The translations under genes and the position numbers were made by a program. A stretch of 37,715 bases of DNA, taken from positions 1 through 37,715 of the IMG/VR virus record IMGVR_UViG_3300019776_000162, one strand, 5' to 3'. Under the pieces are notes generated by a model. It did not search any database. It saw only the letters and a list, made by a program, of their open reading frames with translations, and was not told the origin of the DNA. Positions 22,581-30,405 of this stretch are shown here, piece after piece; the first letter of the stretch is position 1, and the number at the start of each line of letters is the position of its first letter. Source of the DNA: a virus.

Positions 22581-23543
22581 ATGGCAGTTTCAGTTAATAC
22601 CACTTACTATGCAAACGGTAAGGCAGAGGACTTCGAAGATATTATCTTTGATATTTCACCAACAGAAACACCGCTTTTGACATTGGCAAAACGTGGTAAA
22701 GCAACAGCAACATTGCATCAATGGCAAACAGATGCGCTGGCAGCAACAGCAGCTAATATTGTGATTGAAGGTGATGATGCAGCATTTGCCACATTAGCGC
22801 CAACAACTGTTTATGCTAACTATACTCAAATCTCACGTAAGACCGTGCAAATTTCAGGCACTTACGATGCGGTTAAAAAATATGGTCGCAAAACAGAAAC
22901 AGCTTATCAATTAATGAAGGCTGGTAAAGCTCTCAAGCTGGATATCGAGTACGCTTTATCTCGCAACCAGATTGGTACTGCTGGCGGCTCTGCAACTGGT
23001 CGTTCAAGCGCTGGTTTTGAATCATGGATTGCAGGTGATGGTAACCGCATCATCGCAACAGGCAATACCACTGCGACAACTCCAGCATTTACCACAACTC
23101 CAGGTGTTGCATTAACAGACGGCACAGCTAACACATTCATCGAGGCAGACTTGAAATTGGCATTGCAAGCTGCGTGGACTGATGGCGGCGACCCTTCTGT
23201 TATTATGATGTCAGCAACCAACAAAAACCGTTTTGACAGTTTTGCTGGCGTTGCGACTAAATACAACGAAGTTAAGGGCACTTCACAAGGTACAATTACA
23301 GGCGCTTCTGACATTTATGTTTCAAGCTTCGGTAACCACGTAGTGAAACTATCACGTGTAATGCGTGACAATGCGGTGTTATGTATTGACCCTGAATACG
23401 TTGGCGTAGCATTCTTGCGCGGCATTCAAAAAGAAGAACTGGCGAAAACTGGCGACAGTACAAAAACCATCATTCTTGCTGAATATGCATTAACGGTTCA
23501 AAACGTTAATGCTCACGCAAAAGTGCAGGGCGTAGGCGCTTAA
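22581..23543 (+). CDS. Major capsid protein (DUF5309 / SU10-type)
   Basis: A 320-residue HK97-fold capsid protein of the family formerly DUF5309. Features are the TETPLLTLAKRGKATATLHQ opening (28-47), NYTQISRKTVQISGTYDAVK (74-93), YGRKTETAYQLMKAGKALKL and a C-terminal LIxDPEYVG-like block (LCIDPEYVGVAFLRG), all typical of the family. AAGGA precedes the ATG. Smooth codon use and a terminator right after the gene fit very high expression. Confidence 0.9.
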   Translation: MAVSVNTTYYANGKAEDFEDIIFDISPTETPLLTLAKRGKATATLHQWQTDALAATAANIVIEGDDAAFATLAPTTVYANYTQISRKTVQISGTYDAVKKYGRKTETAYQLMKAGKALKLDIEYALSRNQIGTAGGSATGRSSAGFESWIAGDGNRIIATGNTTATTPAFTTTPGVALTDGTANTFIEADLKLALQAAWTDGGDPSVIMMSATNKNRFDSFAGVATKYNEVKGTSQGTITGASDIYVSSFGNHVVKLSRVMRDNAVLCIDPEYVGVAFLRGIQKEELAKTGDSTKTIILAEYALTVQNVNAHAKVQGVGA

Positions 23544-23588: not shown

Positions 23589-23903
23589 ATGACTATATTA
23601 TTCGATAAGAATGCAGATGGAACTACAGAGTATTTCAGGCATGATGAATCATCAAACTCTACTACGATTACTACTGTTCAAGATGTTTCTGGTTTGCTAG
23701 AATCATTAAAGCAAAGAAGGAATTTAACTGGCGATGAAATAAAAGGTGAATTCTGGCATTATGCAACAATCCCCACTGTAGTCGAAATTGCACTGTATAA
23801 AAAAGGGATCAATATTTATGACCCAACGCATACAAAAGCAATGCTAAAAGAAATAAATACCAATTATCCATGGTTGAAAGCCACAAATAAAAAACATGCC
23901 TAA
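23589..23903 (+). CDS. Conserved phage protein downstream of the capsid gene
   Basis: A 104-residue protein with TTITTVQDVSGLLESLKQRR (25-44), FWHYATIPTVVEIALYKKGI (55-74) and YDPTHTKAMLKEINTNYPWL (77-96). This pattern is frequent in small proteins encoded just after the capsid gene in podophages, with no known function. The ATG follows the terminator with no clear ribosome binding site. It overlaps the next gene by 8 nt. Confidence 0.7.
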   Translation: MTILFDKNADGTTEYFRHDESSNSTTITTVQDVSGLLESLKQRRNLTGDEIKGEFWHYATIPTVVEIALYKKGINIYDPTHTKAMLKEINTNYPWLKATNKKHA

Positions 23904-25218
23904 TCAAGAATTATTACTTGCCATTAAAGATTTAGTAGAATCCGAGCAGTTTGATGTTGCAATGCCGCTTATTTATGGAATTCTTGAAGATGACCCGAAT
24001 GATGTAATGGCGTTGAATTTTCTTGGATATATCTATTTAGTCAGCGGTAAAGATGCTCTTGCCTATTATACTTTCAAGCATGCAAGCAATATTGCCCCAA
24101 CAAACAAGGCTATTGTTGCCAATCTTGGTAAGGCAGCACATGAGCTTGGCAGGTTTGAAGAGGCTATCCAACAGTTTTTGGAAGCGGCAAAACTAGACCC
24201 AGACTATGCTATGGCTTATGCTAATGCCAGCGCATCGCTAGTGCAGATGTCACAGTGGGATGATGCAGAGAAAGCCGCATTACTGGCGTTAGAGTGTGAT
24301 CCAAAAGAATTGAATGCAACTATGAATTTAGCGCATGTTTATTTTGCTAAAGGCGATTGGCAGAAAGCATGGAAACATTTTGGCTTGTCACTTGGCTCTA
24401 AATTCCGTAAAGAATACGGCTATGCAGACGAAACGCGCTGGAACGGCGAGAAAAATAAATCATTAGTCATCTATGGTGAGCAGGGATTAGGTGATGAAGT
24501 GATGTACGCATCAATCTTGCCAGAGGTAATTGAAGATAGTAAGCACGTCATTGTTGATTGTGATGCAAAGCTGGAAGGCTTATTTAAGCGCTCATTCCCT
24601 AAAGCTACTGTATATGGTACTAGGCGTGATGACCATCCAGAATGGCTTAAAGGAGCAAAAATAGACCACAGATGTGCATTAGGCGGACTTGGTGAGTTCT
24701 ATCGTACGACAGATGAATCATTTTCTGGGAAGCCTTATTTGGTTGCAGACCCAGAGCGTAGGATTATGTGGCGAGCTTTATTCGACGGTTATAAAAAACC
24801 AGTTATCGGGATTACTTCTCATGGTGGCGTTAAAAAGAATAATGAAGCTGGGAGAACGCTTTCTTATGAGGACTTGAGAGAGCTTTTAAATGACACAAGA
24901 TATGAGTTTGTTTCTCTTGACTATAAAGATGGTGTTACACATAAGCGTTTAAGACAATTCCCGTTCGCTACAAAATCAGATGATATGGATGATACGGCTG
25001 CATTGATATCTGAATTGGATTTGGTCGTTGGCGTTAATACCACAGCGCATCATTTAGCTGGGGCTTTAGGTGTAAAAACAGTTACATTAGTGCCTAAATA
25101 TCATTGGGCAAGATATGCGCGTGACCATGTTTGGTACAAATCACAAACCTTGGTTAAACAGGGATTAAAGACTTGGAAAGAGGTCGTTAAAGGGCTGAAA
25201 ATTGCTGATTACCTCTGA
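23896..25218 (+). CDS. TPR-glycosyltransferase fusion
   Basis: A 440-residue protein. Residues 1-165 hold about four TPR units (ALNFLGYIYLVSGKDALAYY, NLGKAAHELGRFEEAIQQFL, NLAHVYFAKGDWQKAW). Residues 185-440 are a GT9/GT41-like GT-B domain: SLVIYGEQGLGDEVMYASIL (189-208) and a C-terminal VGVNTTAHHLAGALGVKTVT donor-site block. TPR plus GT-B is also the plan of protein O-GlcNAc transferases, so peptide or virion glycosylation is possible; LPS sugar transfer is the alternative. First of five sugar-related genes in the structural operon. Confidence 0.8.
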   Translation: MPNQELLLAIKDLVESEQFDVAMPLIYGILEDDPNDVMALNFLGYIYLVSGKDALAYYTFKHASNIAPTNKAIVANLGKAAHELGRFEEAIQQFLEAAKLDPDYAMAYANASASLVQMSQWDDAEKAALLALECDPKELNATMNLAHVYFAKGDWQKAWKHFGLSLGSKFRKEYGYADETRWNGEKNKSLVIYGEQGLGDEVMYASILPEVIEDSKHVIVDCDAKLEGLFKRSFPKATVYGTRRDDHPEWLKGAKIDHRCALGGLGEFYRTTDESFSGKPYLVADPERRIMWRALFDGYKKPVIGITSHGGVKKNNEAGRTLSYEDLRELLNDTRYEFVSLDYKDGVTHKRLRQFPFATKSDDMDDTAALISELDLVVGVNTTAHHLAGALGVKTVTLVPKYHWARYARDHVWYKSQTLVKQGLKTWKEVVKGLKIADYL

Positions 25219-25228
25219 ATATAAATCC

Positions 25229-25684
25229 ATGCAAAAAACTCTACATGAGAACTCCAGTTATGGAACATCTGGATATAGAAGTGCAGAGTTTGTTAAGAAG
25301 TTTAATGACAAAGATATTCTCGATTACGGCTGTGGGAAACGTACTTTAGAGCACGCTTTAGGATTTGACATATTTAATTATGACCCTGCAATAGAGGGTT
25401 TTGAAAATGAGAATAAACCGCATAATATTGTCTTTTGTGGAGATGTTCTTGAGCACATAGAGCCTCAATTGCTTGATGATGTATTGCAGGATATAAGACG
25501 ATGCACTTTGGTAAGAGGGTTATTAATAGCCTCTACAGTAGCCGCTAAAAAAACATTAAGTGACGGAAGAAATGCACACTTGATTATTGAGAATGCTGAT
25601 TGGTGGCGTGAAAAGTTAAAGAAATATTTCAAAATAACAAGTGAATATATTTCTGGTACAAATGCTTTTTTCTGGGTTGAATAA
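25229..25684 (+). CDS. Class I SAM-dependent methyltransferase-like protein
   Basis: A 151-residue protein with motif I ILDYGCGK (30-37) and a DVLEHIEPQLL motif IV region. It is shorter than most class I methyltransferases, with a compact C-terminal half. The ATG at 25229 is preferred to a TTG at 25202; neither has a clear ribosome binding site. Placed between two glycosyltransferases, it may methylate a sugar or a protein; the substrate is unknown. Confidence 0.7.
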   Translation: MQKTLHENSSYGTSGYRSAEFVKKFNDKDILDYGCGKRTLEHALGFDIFNYDPAIEGFENENKPHNIVFCGDVLEHIEPQLLDDVLQDIRRCTLVRGLLIASTVAAKKTLSDGRNAHLIIENADWWREKLKKYFKITSEYISGTNAFFWVE

Positions 25685-26430
25685 TGGGCGCAGGGGATTG
25701 GCTAATTTGTAGCGCACAAGTTAAACGTGCAAATATTGAAACAGGTAAAAAAGTCTGCGTAGGAAACGGTAAACAGGCATTTATTGATAACGACATACTT
25801 ATTAACAATCCTAGATTAGCCAGAAATGGAGAGGATTGCGTATGGGTAGCCAACTATACTGGGCATCGTCCTTACTTCAAACAGGTAACAAAAGAAAGAA
25901 TCATATTTAATGATGATTTCAAGCCAGAGCCAGGTGAGATATATCTAAGAGAATCAGAACTTAAACAGGCAGATGAGCGCTTAAACGGTGTCACAGATTT
26001 CATACTAGTAGAGCCTAATGTCAAAAGCAAATTTATTCATACCGTTAACAAGTCATGGCCTCATTTTGAAGAGCTAATCAAGCATGATTTACCATGGCTG
26101 CAAGTAGGTGACAGTAACGCTATACGTTACACGAGATTCATACAAACAGATTCATTCAGAGAGGCATGTGCGATTTTAAGCCGTGCCAGTATGTTCGTAG
26201 GCACAGATGGGGGCTTGCATCATGCAGCGGCAGCGCTTGGCATTCCTAGCGTAGTCATTTGGACAGGATTCACTTCACCAAAACATTTAGGTTATGACGC
26301 GCATATCAATATCCATGATGGCGGCGAGCCTTGCGGAACGATTAACAAAGTGTGCCAGCATTGCTTGGACATATCTAAAAACATCACCGTAGAGCGAGTT
26401 TTGGATGCAATTCATACTATCAGGAGTTGA
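25684..26430 (+). CDS. GT9-like glycosyltransferase (heptosyltransferase fold)
   Basis: A 248-residue GT-B-type protein starting MGAGDWLICSAQVKRANIET and carrying the GT9 nucleotide-sugar signature FVGTDGGLHHAAAALGIPSV (about 171-190) followed by VIWTGFTSPKHLGY. A C-terminal CGTINKVCQHC cluster may bind metal or stabilise the fold. Overlaps neighbours (TAATG at the start, 26 nt at the end). Acts in the sugar cassette; acceptor unknown. Confidence 0.8.
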   Translation: MGAGDWLICSAQVKRANIETGKKVCVGNGKQAFIDNDILINNPRLARNGEDCVWVANYTGHRPYFKQVTKERIIFNDDFKPEPGEIYLRESELKQADERLNGVTDFILVEPNVKSKFIHTVNKSWPHFEELIKHDLPWLQVGDSNAIRYTRFIQTDSFREACAILSRASMFVGTDGGLHHAAAALGIPSVVIWTGFTSPKHLGYDAHINIHDGGEPCGTINKVCQHCLDISKNITVERVLDAIHTIRS

Positions 26431-27106
26431 GCGTAGAGATAATGCCCTGAAGCGCTTGCAAAGTGTATCTGGCGGCGAGTTAACGAAAGATTGGAACGGT
26501 AAAGATATTCCTGTAATCGTAGGTAATTTGCATGGTGCTGCTGAGATACAGATTAAGTGCAGAGAGCTTGGAATTCCGTATATTTTAATAGACCATGGAT
26601 ATTTTTATCGTGATATTGGTCTTTCGGTCGCGAGGTTTTGTGTAAGTCATTACCATTGCACAGATTGGAGAACGTCATCAAGGCCATTGCCTAAGATAGA
26701 AAAATATAAGCATGGGAATCATATTGTTGTTATTCCTCCAAGTGATTACGCTAAACTCATTTACAAATCACATAAATGGTTAGATAATACATTGCAACAG
26801 CTATCAAGGCTGACTGATAGGAAAATAATTGTAAAGAACAAAAGTGATGGAGCATTAAGTCCATATTTAAAAGATGCGCATGCATTGATAAGTTTTGGCT
26901 CTGTTTCTGAAGTTGAGGCGCTTATCGCTGGAGTTCCTGTTTTTGTATCTGAATACAGTCCTGCTGCTCCATTAACTCAGGATTTATTAAATATAGAATC
27001 GCCAGAATTTAAATATAGAGACGATTGGCTGCGTTCTTTGTCTGCTTGCCAGTGGGGCAGCCATGAAATGAATGAATGTTGGGATAGATTGAAAGCGCAA
27101 TTATGA
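26405..27106 (+). CDS. GT-B-like glycosyltransferase / capsule-synthesis-like protein
   Basis: A 233-residue protein of the GT-B type seen beside GT9 genes in phages: IPYILIDHGYFYRDIGLS (residues 57-74), a VVIPPSDYAKLIYKS linker, then HALISFGSVSEVEALIAGVP and VFVSEYSPAAPL, the donor-binding GS-x-SEVEAL block. Its start lies 26 nt inside the previous gene and its stop overlaps the next ATG. Exact sugar and acceptor unknown. Confidence 0.65.
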   Translation: MQFILSGVERRDNALKRLQSVSGGELTKDWNGKDIPVIVGNLHGAAEIQIKCRELGIPYILIDHGYFYRDIGLSVARFCVSHYHCTDWRTSSRPLPKIEKYKHGNHIVVIPPSDYAKLIYKSHKWLDNTLQQLSRLTDRKIIVKNKSDGALSPYLKDAHALISFGSVSEVEALIAGVPVFVSEYSPAAPLTQDLLNIESPEFKYRDDWLRSLSACQWGSHEMNECWDRLKAQL

Positions 27107-27795
27107 CAATACCTGTTTACGTTGGCTATGATTATCGGGAAGCGGTAGCTTACCATGTTTTTTGCCATAGCATTATCAATAAATCCACAGTGCCAGTAAG
27201 TTTCCATCCGCTATCATTATCTCTGCTATCTGGTTATAAAGAAACGCACACGGATGGCTCAAATGCATTTATTTACTCAAGATTCTTGGTTCCCCACTTA
27301 CAAGGATATAAAGGATGGGCAATATTTGCTGATGGGGATATGGTGTGTTTAGATGACATAGCAGAGCTTTGGGAGTTACGAGATGAATCCAAAGCCGTAA
27401 TGGTGATAAAGCATGATTATAAAACCAAGTTTCCAATTAAGTATCTAGGTAATAATAACGCTGACTATCCTAGAAAAAATTGGTCAAGCGTAATGCTGAT
27501 TAACTGTTCTCATCCAGCAAACAAGGTGCTCACTCCTGAATTTATAGAAAATGCCACAGGTGCACAGCTACATAGGTTTACATGGCTAACTGATGATTTA
27601 ATTGGAGAGCTTCCTATCGAGTGGAATTGGCTGGATAAAGAGTTTGATATAAACTCTGAGGCAAAATTAATCCATTACACAATTGGCACGCCATGCTTTG
27701 ATGGTTATAAAGATGGTACGCAGACCAGCAAATGGTGGGATAATTATACGGGAGCTATTTCACCTTTATATGTCACTAAGGAATCTTACGCATGA
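27103..27795 (+). CDS. GT8-like glycosyltransferase
   Basis: A 230-residue GT-A-fold protein. FADGDMVCLDDIAELW (75-90) contains the DxD metal site D77-G-D79, and PVYVGYDYREAVAYHVFCHS opens the Rossmann-like half. LLSGYKETHTDGSNAF and WSSVMLINC are further GT8-style blocks, and IHYTIGTP near the end resembles the C-terminal H of the family. A retaining sugar transferase that would use UDP-sugars. Last gene of the cassette; the tail genes follow with a 4-nt overlap. Confidence 0.8.
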   Translation: MTIPVYVGYDYREAVAYHVFCHSIINKSTVPVSFHPLSLSLLSGYKETHTDGSNAFIYSRFLVPHLQGYKGWAIFADGDMVCLDDIAELWELRDESKAVMVIKHDYKTKFPIKYLGNNNADYPRKNWSSVMLINCSHPANKVLTPEFIENATGAQLHRFTWLTDDLIGELPIEWNWLDKEFDINSEAKLIHYTIGTPCFDGYKDGTQTSKWWDNYTGAISPLYVTKESYA

Positions 27796-28400
27796 TAACC
27801 GATTACACAGAGCTACAAACATCAATGACAAGCTGGCTGAGCAGGACTAATGACACTGGGCTTATTGCATTGTTCCCTGATTTCATTACGCTTGCAGAAG
27901 CAAAGTTTAATCGTGCGTTAAGGACAAGAGAGATGGAAACGACTGCAACTGTTGCCGCATCCAATGGTGCTGTTGCTTTGCCTGCTGATTATCTTGAAAT
28001 GCGTAGATTGTTTATTAACGGCTCAACAAGAAAAGAGCTTGAATATCTCACCCCAGAAACATTCTATCTTACGTTCCCATCAAACACAGGAAGCTCTAAA
28101 TATTACACGATTGAAGGCTCTAATATTAAATTAGCAGACCAATCAACAAGCTCTGATGTCATTATTCTTTATTACCAGAAAATCCCTGCATTGAGCGTTT
28201 CAAACACGACAAATTGGCTGTTGACATCGCATCCAGATTTGTACCTTGCAGAATCTTTATCTGAAGCTTACAACGTGATTAAAAATGCTGGTGAAGAGCA
28301 AAAATGGTATCAAAAAGCAGTTTTAATTGCTGAATCTATTTTAAGCGCAGATAAAAAAGGCAAGTATTCTGGTACATCTATGAGAGTGATTGCAGCATGA
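27792..28400 (+). CDS. Tail adaptor (head-tail connector) protein
   Basis: A 202-residue protein of the podovirus adaptor type: ITLAEAKFNRALRTREMETT (34-53), ALPADYLEMRRLFING (67-82) and a C-terminal LAESLSEAYNVIKNAGEEQK helix. Proteins with this pattern attach to the portal ring as in P22 gp4 and T7 gp11. ATGA overlaps at both ends tie it to the next tail gene. Confidence 0.8.
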   Translation: MITDYTELQTSMTSWLSRTNDTGLIALFPDFITLAEAKFNRALRTREMETTATVAASNGAVALPADYLEMRRLFINGSTRKELEYLTPETFYLTFPSNTGSSKYYTIEGSNIKLADQSTSSDVIILYYQKIPALSVSNTTNWLLTSHPDLYLAESLSEAYNVIKNAGEEQKWYQKAVLIAESILSADKKGKYSGTSMRVIAA

Positions 28401-29851
28401 TTTTAATTGGATACGCGCCAGATTTAGACCAGACAACAGAAGGCATTATTACTGATTGCACAGCATTTATTCCAACTGAAAAAGGAATGGAAGCTGCCCC
28501 CAGCGCGCAATCTACTGGAATGGATGCATTGGCATCTGTTTGTTATGGTGCAGCGGCAACCAGAAAGCTAGATTCAAGTGCTAGAGTATTTGCTGGAACT
28601 GCTACAAAACTTTATGAAAAAAGTGGAGCAAGCTGGTCTGATGTTACACGTCTGGCAGGCGACTACGCGGTGGGCGCTGACGATTTCTGGCGATTTGCAC
28701 AGTTTGGCAATACAACATTGGCGGTCACAAAAACAGATACATTACAATATTCTGACAGTGGGGTATTTGCAGATGTAACTGGAGCGCCTAAAGCCGCTAT
28801 TGTTGAAACTGTTGGAAATTTTGTATTTTTGTTTAATACCGATGAATCTAGTTTTGGCGATAGCCCGAATAGATGGTGGTGCAGCGCAATTCAAGATTAT
28901 ACAGATTGGACGCCATCTATTGCCACTCAATGTGCTACAGGCATCTTAACCTCGTCTTATGGCAGGATATTTGCTGGGCGCAGGTTTGGTGAGCAGATTG
29001 TGGTATATAAAGAACGCGCAATGTATGTGGGCACTTATGTCGGAACTCCTATCATATGGGATTTTCAGCAAGTGCCAGGAGAGGCTGGTTGCAATTCACA
29101 GGAGGCTGTTGCAAATATTGGAACTCCAGAAAACCCTGTTCATATATTTATGGGTGCTGACGATTTCTGGCGGTTCGATGGAGCAAGGCCAGTCCCTATC
29201 GGAGAGCCTGTTAAAAGAACAATCTATTCAAGACTGGATAAAGGATATTCAAATAGAATAAAATCATTGCACGACAGGATTAACTCAAGAGTTTATTTTT
29301 ATTACCCTCCTAGAGGGTCAGGTGGCGAATTAACTGAATGTGTCGTTTATCACTATAGAACAAACAAATGGGGCAGGGATGATAGATCTATCGAAGCTTG
29401 TTTGGAATATATCTCTGGCGGAGTGACTTGGGACACCATAAGCTTTGCATCATGGGATACAATCAATGCGACATTGAGCTGGGGGTCTCCATTTTGGCTG
29501 TCTGGGTCAACAACGCCAGCGGTATTTAACCTGAGTCATGAGATGGAATCATTAGACGGCATTTCTCTTGATTCAAGTTTTACTACTGGCGATATTGGGG
29601 ATGATGACAATTATTACCTTCTGCAAAGGGTAAAGCCAAAGTGGCTAACAAAGCCAACAACGGCAACCATGACCAATTATTACAAGGCAAATGAAGGCGA
29701 TACTTTGACTACTGGAAATATATGTACTATGGACAGGTCTAGATTTGATTTGCTAATAAGCTCAAGATGGCATCGGTTGCAGTTTGATATGGTTGGCGAT
29801 TGTGTATTGAATGAAGTTGGCATTGGCTACATTCAGGATGGCGTAGAATGA
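28397..29851 (+). CDS. Tail stabilisation protein (P22 gp10-like role)
   Basis: A 484-residue beta-rich protein with GADDFWRF occurring twice (about residues 94-101 and 253-260), a sign of a repeated propeller-like structure, as in the P22 gp10 / packaged-DNA stabilisation type. NRWWCSAIQDYTDWTPSIAT is typical of this family in podophages. It closes the portal channel below the adaptor. ATGA overlaps on both sides. Confidence 0.75.
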   Translation: MILIGYAPDLDQTTEGIITDCTAFIPTEKGMEAAPSAQSTGMDALASVCYGAAATRKLDSSARVFAGTATKLYEKSGASWSDVTRLAGDYAVGADDFWRFAQFGNTTLAVTKTDTLQYSDSGVFADVTGAPKAAIVETVGNFVFLFNTDESSFGDSPNRWWCSAIQDYTDWTPSIATQCATGILTSSYGRIFAGRRFGEQIVVYKERAMYVGTYVGTPIIWDFQQVPGEAGCNSQEAVANIGTPENPVHIFMGADDFWRFDGARPVPIGEPVKRTIYSRLDKGYSNRIKSLHDRINSRVYFYYPPRGSGGELTECVVYHYRTNKWGRDDRSIEACLEYISGGVTWDTISFASWDTINATLSWGSPFWLSGSTTPAVFNLSHEMESLDGISLDSSFTTGDIGDDDNYYLLQRVKPKWLTKPTTATMTNYYKANEGDTLTTGNICTMDRSRFDLLISSRWHRLQFDMVGDCVLNEVGIGYIQDGVE

Positions 29852-30405
29852 AAGTTGATATAACAAATCTAGCCCAATTTGAATATAACAGGCAATCAAT
29901 ATTCAGAGCTTTTTCAGAAATACAAAAAAACTTAAATCTATTGCTAGACCATCAATATGGTCAGCTTACAATTACCAACAACACCTCGACAATTGCAGTT
30001 ACTGCGGCAGTTGATAGTACTCTCGCCACAAATTCAGATTATAGTCAAATAACTGGCATATGGAATTCAATCCCTCACGGGATAAATAATGGTATAACAC
30101 AACAAACAAATAGTTTTACCATCACAAAAACTGGCGCATATAGGATAGAGATGTGGGCAAACGTTACAAGCTCTGTCAATAATACCAATGTTGCAGTTAG
30201 ATTTGCCAAGAATGGCGTAATTACATTGGCAAGAAGGCCAAGAGCTTATATTGCTGCTGCAAATGATAGAATAAATATGTCTGCTCATGGGTTTGCAGAG
30301 TTAACGGCTGGTGATATTATTACGCTATGGATTGCTTCAGATAAAACATCTAATATTACTATTGAAGATTGTGTATTCTCTGCTGAAGGATTGAGAATGT
30401 ATTGA
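29848..30405 (+). CDS. Small fibre/knob-like virion protein
   Basis: A 185-residue protein: a helical N-terminal part (FRAFSEIQKNLNLLLDHQYG) that may trimerise, followed by a beta jelly-roll (TITKTGAYRIEMWANVTSS, AVRFAKNGV, AELTAGDIITLWIASDKTS) resembling C1q/TNF-like virion domains. Probably a short appendage or tail accessory. Confidence 0.6.
   Translation: MKVDITNLAQFEYNRQSIFRAFSEIQKNLNLLLDHQYGQLTITNNTSTIAVTAAVDSTLATNSDYSQITGIWNSIPHGINNGITQQTNSFTITKTGAYRIEMWANVTSSVNNTNVAVRFAKNGVITLARRPRAYIAAANDRINMSAHGFAELTAGDIITLWIASDKTSNITIEDCVFSAEGLRMY

Follow-up and report, generated by a model that had tools for sequence, protein, structure and literature searches.

A capsid-linked TPR-glycosyltransferase cassette of aquatic podovirus-like phages, a probable virion O-glycosylation pathway

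The virus record IMGVR_UViG_3300019776_000162 (37,715 nt; this whole 37.7-kb stretch is hereafter called the window) harbours five contiguous genes for putative sugar-modifying enzymes. They code for a tetratricopeptide repeat (TPR) protein with a glycosyltransferase (GT) domain (hereafter TPR-GT), an S-adenosylmethionine (SAM) methyltransferase (MT), and GT9-like, GT-B-like and GT8-like proteins. We propose that the phage probably uses this cassette for cytoplasmic O-glycosylation of its own virion, most likely of its major capsid protein (MCP). Glycosylation of phage particle proteins has been reported from few systems. The present finding suggests that such a route is widespread and predictable among aquatic podovirus-like phages; the enzyme class can be named, and a candidate acceptor is encoded two genes away. 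Virion glycosylation by phage enzymes is already known from mycobacteriophages, on the account of Freeman et al. 2023 given in PMC12619734 and PMC12691614, in which glycans on capsid and tail subunits are ascribed to phage GTs. Mycobacteriophages belong to another host group than that of this phage, and we set them beside the cassette on the basis of that description rather than of an enzyme comparison. In the open-access literature searched, no description of a TPR-GT gene next to that of a phage capsid came to light, an absence that proves little.

A cassette within the late structural operon

A preliminary description made from the sequence alone had recognised five genes in an overlapping run that takes up about a tenth of the genome. 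Both points hold: successive open reading frames (ORFs) overlap by 17, 1, 26 and 4 nt and occupy 3.9 kb of the 37.7 kb (10.3%), with a GC content matching that of the neighbouring late genes. All features given here are on the + strand. The cassette does lie within the late structural operon, as described, with the gene for an SU10-type MCP upstream (22581..23543; PF17236 SU10_MCP, E = 2.5e-82), the proposed acceptor. A 104-aa ORF (23589..23903; phrog_3982), whose product is a possible alternative acceptor, is conserved between the MCP gene and the cassette and is overlapped by the TPR-GT ORF by 8 nt. The placement of the cassette between capsid and tail genes is accurate on the capsid side but loose on the tail side, where the next gene codes for an SU10 head-tail adaptor (27792..28400; PF24175 SU10_adaptor, E = 9.3e-30). 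That gene, which the GT8 ORF overlaps by 4 nt (ATGA), forms the right border of the cassette.

The TPR-GT resembles FlmG

The proposed protein O-glycosyltransferase (23896..25218; 440 aa) comprises a TPR superhelix (residues ~1-165; TPR families matched down to E = 2.4e-14) and a GT9-like GT-B domain (residues ~187-440). In its AlphaFold model (pLDDT 89, pTM 0.84), approximately ten TPR helices are predicted to precede a two-lobed Rossmann GT-B domain. The best Foldseek matches were SPINDLY (5e-12) and OGT, bearing out the earlier remark that TPR plus GT-B is the domain plan of protein O-glycosyltransferases. Superposition of the whole chain with XcOGT gave a Z-score of 17.7 with a root-mean-square deviation (rmsd) of 9.6 over 369 residues. 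The GT domain alone aligned with the GT9 structure 3tov (Z 17.1, rmsd 3.2 over 245 residues), heptosyltransferase II (1psw, Z 16.5) and the protein heptosyltransferase TibC (4rap, Z 15.7). Membership of GT41 was rejected on sequence, as no GT41 model is among the 18 Pfam families matched at E up to 0.1. The structural comparison with GT41 that had been recommended thus agrees in overall fold but not in family signature, the GT domain being GT9-like. The match of the TPR-GT to PF01075 is weak and under the cut-off (E = 4.5e-4, 20.0 bits, cut-off 22). The residues of an EQGxGD motif (195-200) show >90% conservation among the phage and bacterial sequences compared, and by analogy with heptosyltransferases Asp200 would presumably be the catalytic base.

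The TPR-GT therefore combines features of several known systems. It shares the TPR and GT-B architecture and the best Foldseek matches with OGT and SPINDLY (GT41), but it has fewer TPRs, no GT41 Pfam match and a GT domain closer to GT9. The GT9-like fold is found in the autotransporter heptosyltransferases TibC and Aah, which also act on protein; unlike the phage enzyme they lack a TPR domain, and their substrates are autotransporters. O-GlcNAc transferases had been named earlier for their domain plan, but on sequence the nearest functionally characterised relative is of the FlmG type and not a eukaryotic-type OGT. FlmG has been proven to O-glycosylate flagellin in the cytoplasm; in Caulobacter crescentus its TPR domain binds flagellin, and it suffices for flagellin glycosylation (PMC7591256). 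The protein that we compared is not C. crescentus FlmG itself but a 618-aa ORF of Caulobacter sp. L222, which is homologous over both domains (27% identity, residues 18-434, E = 1e-31) and whose gene is divergent from flbT-flaF, with a flagellin gene nearby. Like FlmG, the phage TPR-GT has an N-terminal TPR and a C-terminal GT-B domain in one soluble protein, as judged from Pfam and the AlphaFold model, and is encoded near the gene of a self-assembling protein, flagellin being the substrate of FlmG. It differs in adjoining a capsid gene, in its shorter TPR array (440 vs 596-618 aa) and in its partners, which are GT8, GT9, GT-B and MT proteins instead of the pseudaminic acid pathway.

Linkage to the capsid gene

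We compared the window gene by gene with two samples of 80 viral contigs each, one picked for the similarity of the MCP (66-79%) and the other comprising the best matches to TPR-GT. Among contigs with enough sequence on the relevant side, the TPR-GT gene is downstream of the MCP gene in 60/60 of the former, and the MCP gene is upstream of the TPR-GT gene in 54/55 of the latter. The lone exception is a contig that stops ~160 nt short of the 104-aa ORF. This near-complete linkage upholds the earlier idea that a virion protein is the likely target. As the gene order recurs in >100 contigs, the arrangement is not due to chance.

Median identities between the window and its relatives are 68% for the MCP, 48% for the 104-aa ORF and 46% for the portal, and 55% for TPR-GT, 61% for GT9, 55% for GT-B, 57% for GT8 and 44% for MT in the cassette. 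They fall to 38% for the scaffold protein and 32% for both the large terminase subunit (TerL) and the adaptor. This pattern indicates that the cassette co-segregates with the capsid gene and not with the terminase or adaptor genes. Phage pairs at equal MCP identity have adaptors that are 56% identical (47-62%), versus 32% for the window, and the window adaptor was therefore probably acquired from elsewhere. Given the MCP distance, this right boundary is the sole identity outlier; upstream recombination at the scaffold and MCP genes was rejected, since scaffold identity is as in relatives of equal MCP distance.

The same pathway might have an acceptor other than the MCP, namely the 104-aa protein, an adaptor or neck protein, or a tail or fibre protein, which we regard as rather unlikely. 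The 104-aa ORF accompanies TPR-GT as constantly as the MCP gene does, lying upstream of it in 55/55 loci, but its relatives, at 23-26% identity, also occur in cassette-free phages. Co-segregation with the cassette is not seen for the adaptor, which at 32% is no closer to those of relatives than to that of the cassette-free phage L001 (35%; MCP 48%, TerL 30%). A tail acceptor is at odds with the downstream tail genes, which are divergent or undetected in most relatives. The MCP is thus favoured as acceptor. Within one MCP clade the ratio of TPR to GT domain identity has a mean of 0.97, i.e. both domains are equally conserved, and it drops to 0.56-0.61 where the capsid protein differs. This sequence pattern would fit a TPR domain that reads the substrate.

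The gene content of the cassette is variable. In the interval between TPR-GT and the adaptor, GT9 and GT-B genes were found in 57 contigs, MT alone in 51, MT with GT9 and GT-B in 10, and none was detected in 4. A GT8 gene is present in 13/13 contigs having at least 2.6 kb upstream of the TerL gene, and in most relatives it is ~8 kb away, upstream of the terminase genes. From the constancy of GT8 and the variable MT, GT9 and GT-B content, we conclude that TPR-GT and GT8 form the core and that the window has one of the fuller versions of the cassette. Of the gene order that was to be sought in related phages, the position of TPR-GT by the capsid gene is thus retained; the five genes do not form a fixed set, MT, GT9 and GT-B being optional. 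A single-sequence scan of viral contigs with TPR-GT gave no match, whereas a profile scan returned at least 599 stretches, of which 503 of those listed were confirmed as relatives.

Proposed pathway and partner enzymes

As regards activity, acceptor, linkage type, transfer order and sugar identity, we infer the following scheme. The TPR domain would capture a self-assembling protein as freshly synthesised subunits, most likely those of the MCP encoded two genes upstream, and the GT9-like GT-B domain would use a nucleotide-sugar of the host to place the first sugar on Ser/Thr residues. GT8, which is always kept, would lengthen the chain together with GT9 and GT-B where these are present, and the methyltransferase would cap or decorate it before or during head assembly. 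This would follow the logic of FlmG, in which the TPR domain binds flagellin for glycosylation by the C-terminal GT-B domain, with a capsid taking the place of flagellin. The phage might gain shielding, head stability or surface adhesion from it. The sugar donors would be those of the host, because no nucleotide-sugar synthesis gene is found among the window genes scanned.

The GT8-like protein (27103..27795; PF01501, E = 6.8e-7, 29.6 bits, cut-off 24.3) has a DxD motif, DGD at residues 77-79, that is invariant across aligned relatives. The optional MT (25202..25684, TTG start) matches Methyltransf_23 (PF13489, 4.1e-7) and phrog_24759 (5.2e-21). The short GT9-like protein, also optional (25684..26430; 53-63% identical to relatives), matches PF01075 (3.2e-7) with 30.4 bits, above the 22-bit cut-off. 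The putative GT-B-type enzyme that accompanies it (ORF 4, 26405..27106) is our weakest call, made from a GT-B-like C-terminal motif and constant GT neighbours. Its sole Pfam match, to DUF6716 'putative glycosyltransferase', is weak (0.049), its fold was modelled poorly by AlphaFold (pLDDT 55), and profile comparison with GT9 yielded nothing useful. Sequence searches detected no solved-structure relative for ORF 4 or GT9. Relatives of ORF 4 adjoin GT8 or GT9 genes in Caulobacter jumbo phages and Pelagibacter phage Mosig.

Targets other than the virion, namely host pilin or flagellin, lipopolysaccharide (LPS) and DNA, are less likely. The GT9 and GT8 families (PF01075, PF01501) include LPS core transferases, and the cassette might modify host LPS or O-antigen in the manner of serotype conversion. 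This appears very improbable, given that the cassette genes include no flippase, polyprenyl-phosphate transferase or similar family, that LPS enzymes do not usually have a TPR domain and that the capsid linkage is constant. Some phage GTs hypermodify DNA, as is generally known and as cited in PMC12619734. Glycosylation of modified phage DNA is the least credible of these readings: no pyrimidine hydroxymethylase or similar base-modification gene was found among the window genes scanned, the cassette is located in the late operon, and TPR-GT is homologous to a flagellin-linked enzyme.

Bacterial relatives are linked to pilin and flagellin genes

Scanning bacterial genomes for TPR-GT relatives yielded 77 loci. 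The nearest relatives are in betaproteobacteria and Methylococcus, with several TPR-GT copies each, and most of these bacteria also carry a GT8 that is 43-50% identical to the phage GT8; one such gene, coding for a protein with 45% identity, adjoins TPR-GT genes. A canonical type IV pilin gene is found in 13/77 loci and a flagellin gene in 7/77. Ten of the pilin-bearing genomes have just 24 Pilin-family genes in 43.5 Mb, so that ~0.01 pilin per locus would be expected by chance, and in Methylococcus capsulatus the single Pilin-family gene is ~2 kb from a TPR-GT gene. Flagellin as the general bacterial neighbour was rejected, since several genomes lack it and pilin is more frequent. These data suggest a general rule, whereby TPR-GT genes adjoin the gene of the self-assembling subunit that is decorated (flagellin, pilin or capsid). 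If true, the rule would allow acceptors to be predicted from genomes.

Given the pilin and flagellin links of the closest bacterial relatives, the phage enzymes might act on a protein of the host surface, perhaps type IV pilin or flagellin, and so serve, for instance, to exclude superinfecting phages. We deem this very unlikely, as the cassette is inside the late operon and bound to one capsid clade, and a shared host target does not predict the lower conservation of the TPR domain seen between capsid types.

In Methylococcus and betaproteobacteria, several clusters of TPR-GT, GT8 and methyltransferase genes end in a type IV pilin gene (L168:3149-11483, L188 and L183) and possibly represent a locus for pilin glycosylation that has yet to be described. 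Telmatospirillum loci (L192, L193 and L217) have at least 10 TPR-GT matches within <18 kb.

Related cassettes in other phages

An MCP relative, at best 47% identical, is present in 296 records of a phage collection. We inspected 10 of these SU10-MCP phages, and in each the slot between the MCP and adaptor genes lacks TPR-GT; in most it has no enzyme gene at all. A TPR-GT search across the whole collection retrieved six records, with coverage >80% only in MW202512. In this podovirus, the gene order is PF13252 capsid, two small ORFs, TPR-GT, HNH endonuclease, MT, GT8 and SU10 adaptor, and the identities to the window proteins are 29% for TPR-GT, 40% for MT and 43% for GT8. The capsid family is unrelated to the window MCP, and the slot is the same. 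Relatives of the MW202512 TPR-GT are accompanied by MT and GT8 in four viral contigs. The metagenome-assembled contig L162 is also a phage, with MCP, TPR-GT and GT8 proteins 53%, 41% and 66% identical to those of the window.

The slot can be otherwise occupied. In two Manatee Spring genomes of SU10-MCP phages, MW202711 (L242:5350-5979) and MW202496 (L245:2367-3011), an unrelated Anp1/GT2-like GT lies between the small ORF and the adaptor. In Sinorhizobium phage phiM5 (L244:5343-6653), the capsid gene and a small ORF are followed by a gene for a GDSL/SGNH hydrolase, whose annotation records its detection in the particle proteome. The Anp1/GT2-like genes suggest that sugar enzymes have been gained repeatedly at the MCP-adaptor slot.

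Relatives of all four accessory genes are contiguous in the Caulobacter jumbo phage CcrColossus and its relatives, where their order is a cyclic permutation of that in the window (GT-B, GT8, MT and GT9 in CcrColossus, L156:9626-14179). Unlike the cassette, this single block is in a 280-kb phage, between tail and lysis genes, and no TPR-GT was found with it. The CcrColossus block also includes a gene annotated as MptE-like/sialyltransferase. In Pelagibacter phage Mosig, the GT8 and GT-B relatives are side by side.

It is plausible, although we would argue for it no more strongly than against it, that phages captured a bacterial TPR-GT and GT8 pathway of the flagellin or pilin type and retargeted it to capsids. 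The cassette would then be a portable module, locked to one capsid lineage while the terminase, scaffold and adaptor genes are exchanged, with a related cassette in the same slot by an unrelated capsid family.

Several points weigh against capsid glycosylation. It is a proposal from sequence and predicted structure, and some of the cassette GTs could have a free or lipid-linked glycan as their substrate. The linkage was counted over contigs, which are in many cases close relatives and were picked as best matches, and not over independent events, and the falling TPR:GT ratio may partly reflect a general divergence of TPRs at low identity. A Ser/Thr-rich loop motif, TGxTxxTTP, occurs in 91/120 MCPs of cassette-bearing phages; it was dropped as the acceptor site because the MCPs of cassette-free phages have similarly rich loops, and such a loop is thus not diagnostic. 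In MW202512, the adaptor and other neck and tail genes are homologous to those of the window and the MCP gene is not, so that retention of the adaptor with a different capsid family fits a neck or tail acceptor equally well. Finally, in Caulobacter jumbo phages the relatives of GT8, GT-B, GT9 and MT genes follow tail rather than capsid genes, which also speaks for another acceptor.

Promoter-like sites in the late operon are not more common than in shuffled sequences. Further downstream in the window (29848-30405), a gene codes for a 185-aa protein that weakly matches the C-terminal domain of BclA (PF18573, 1.1e-4) and may be a trimeric fibre or other surface protein.

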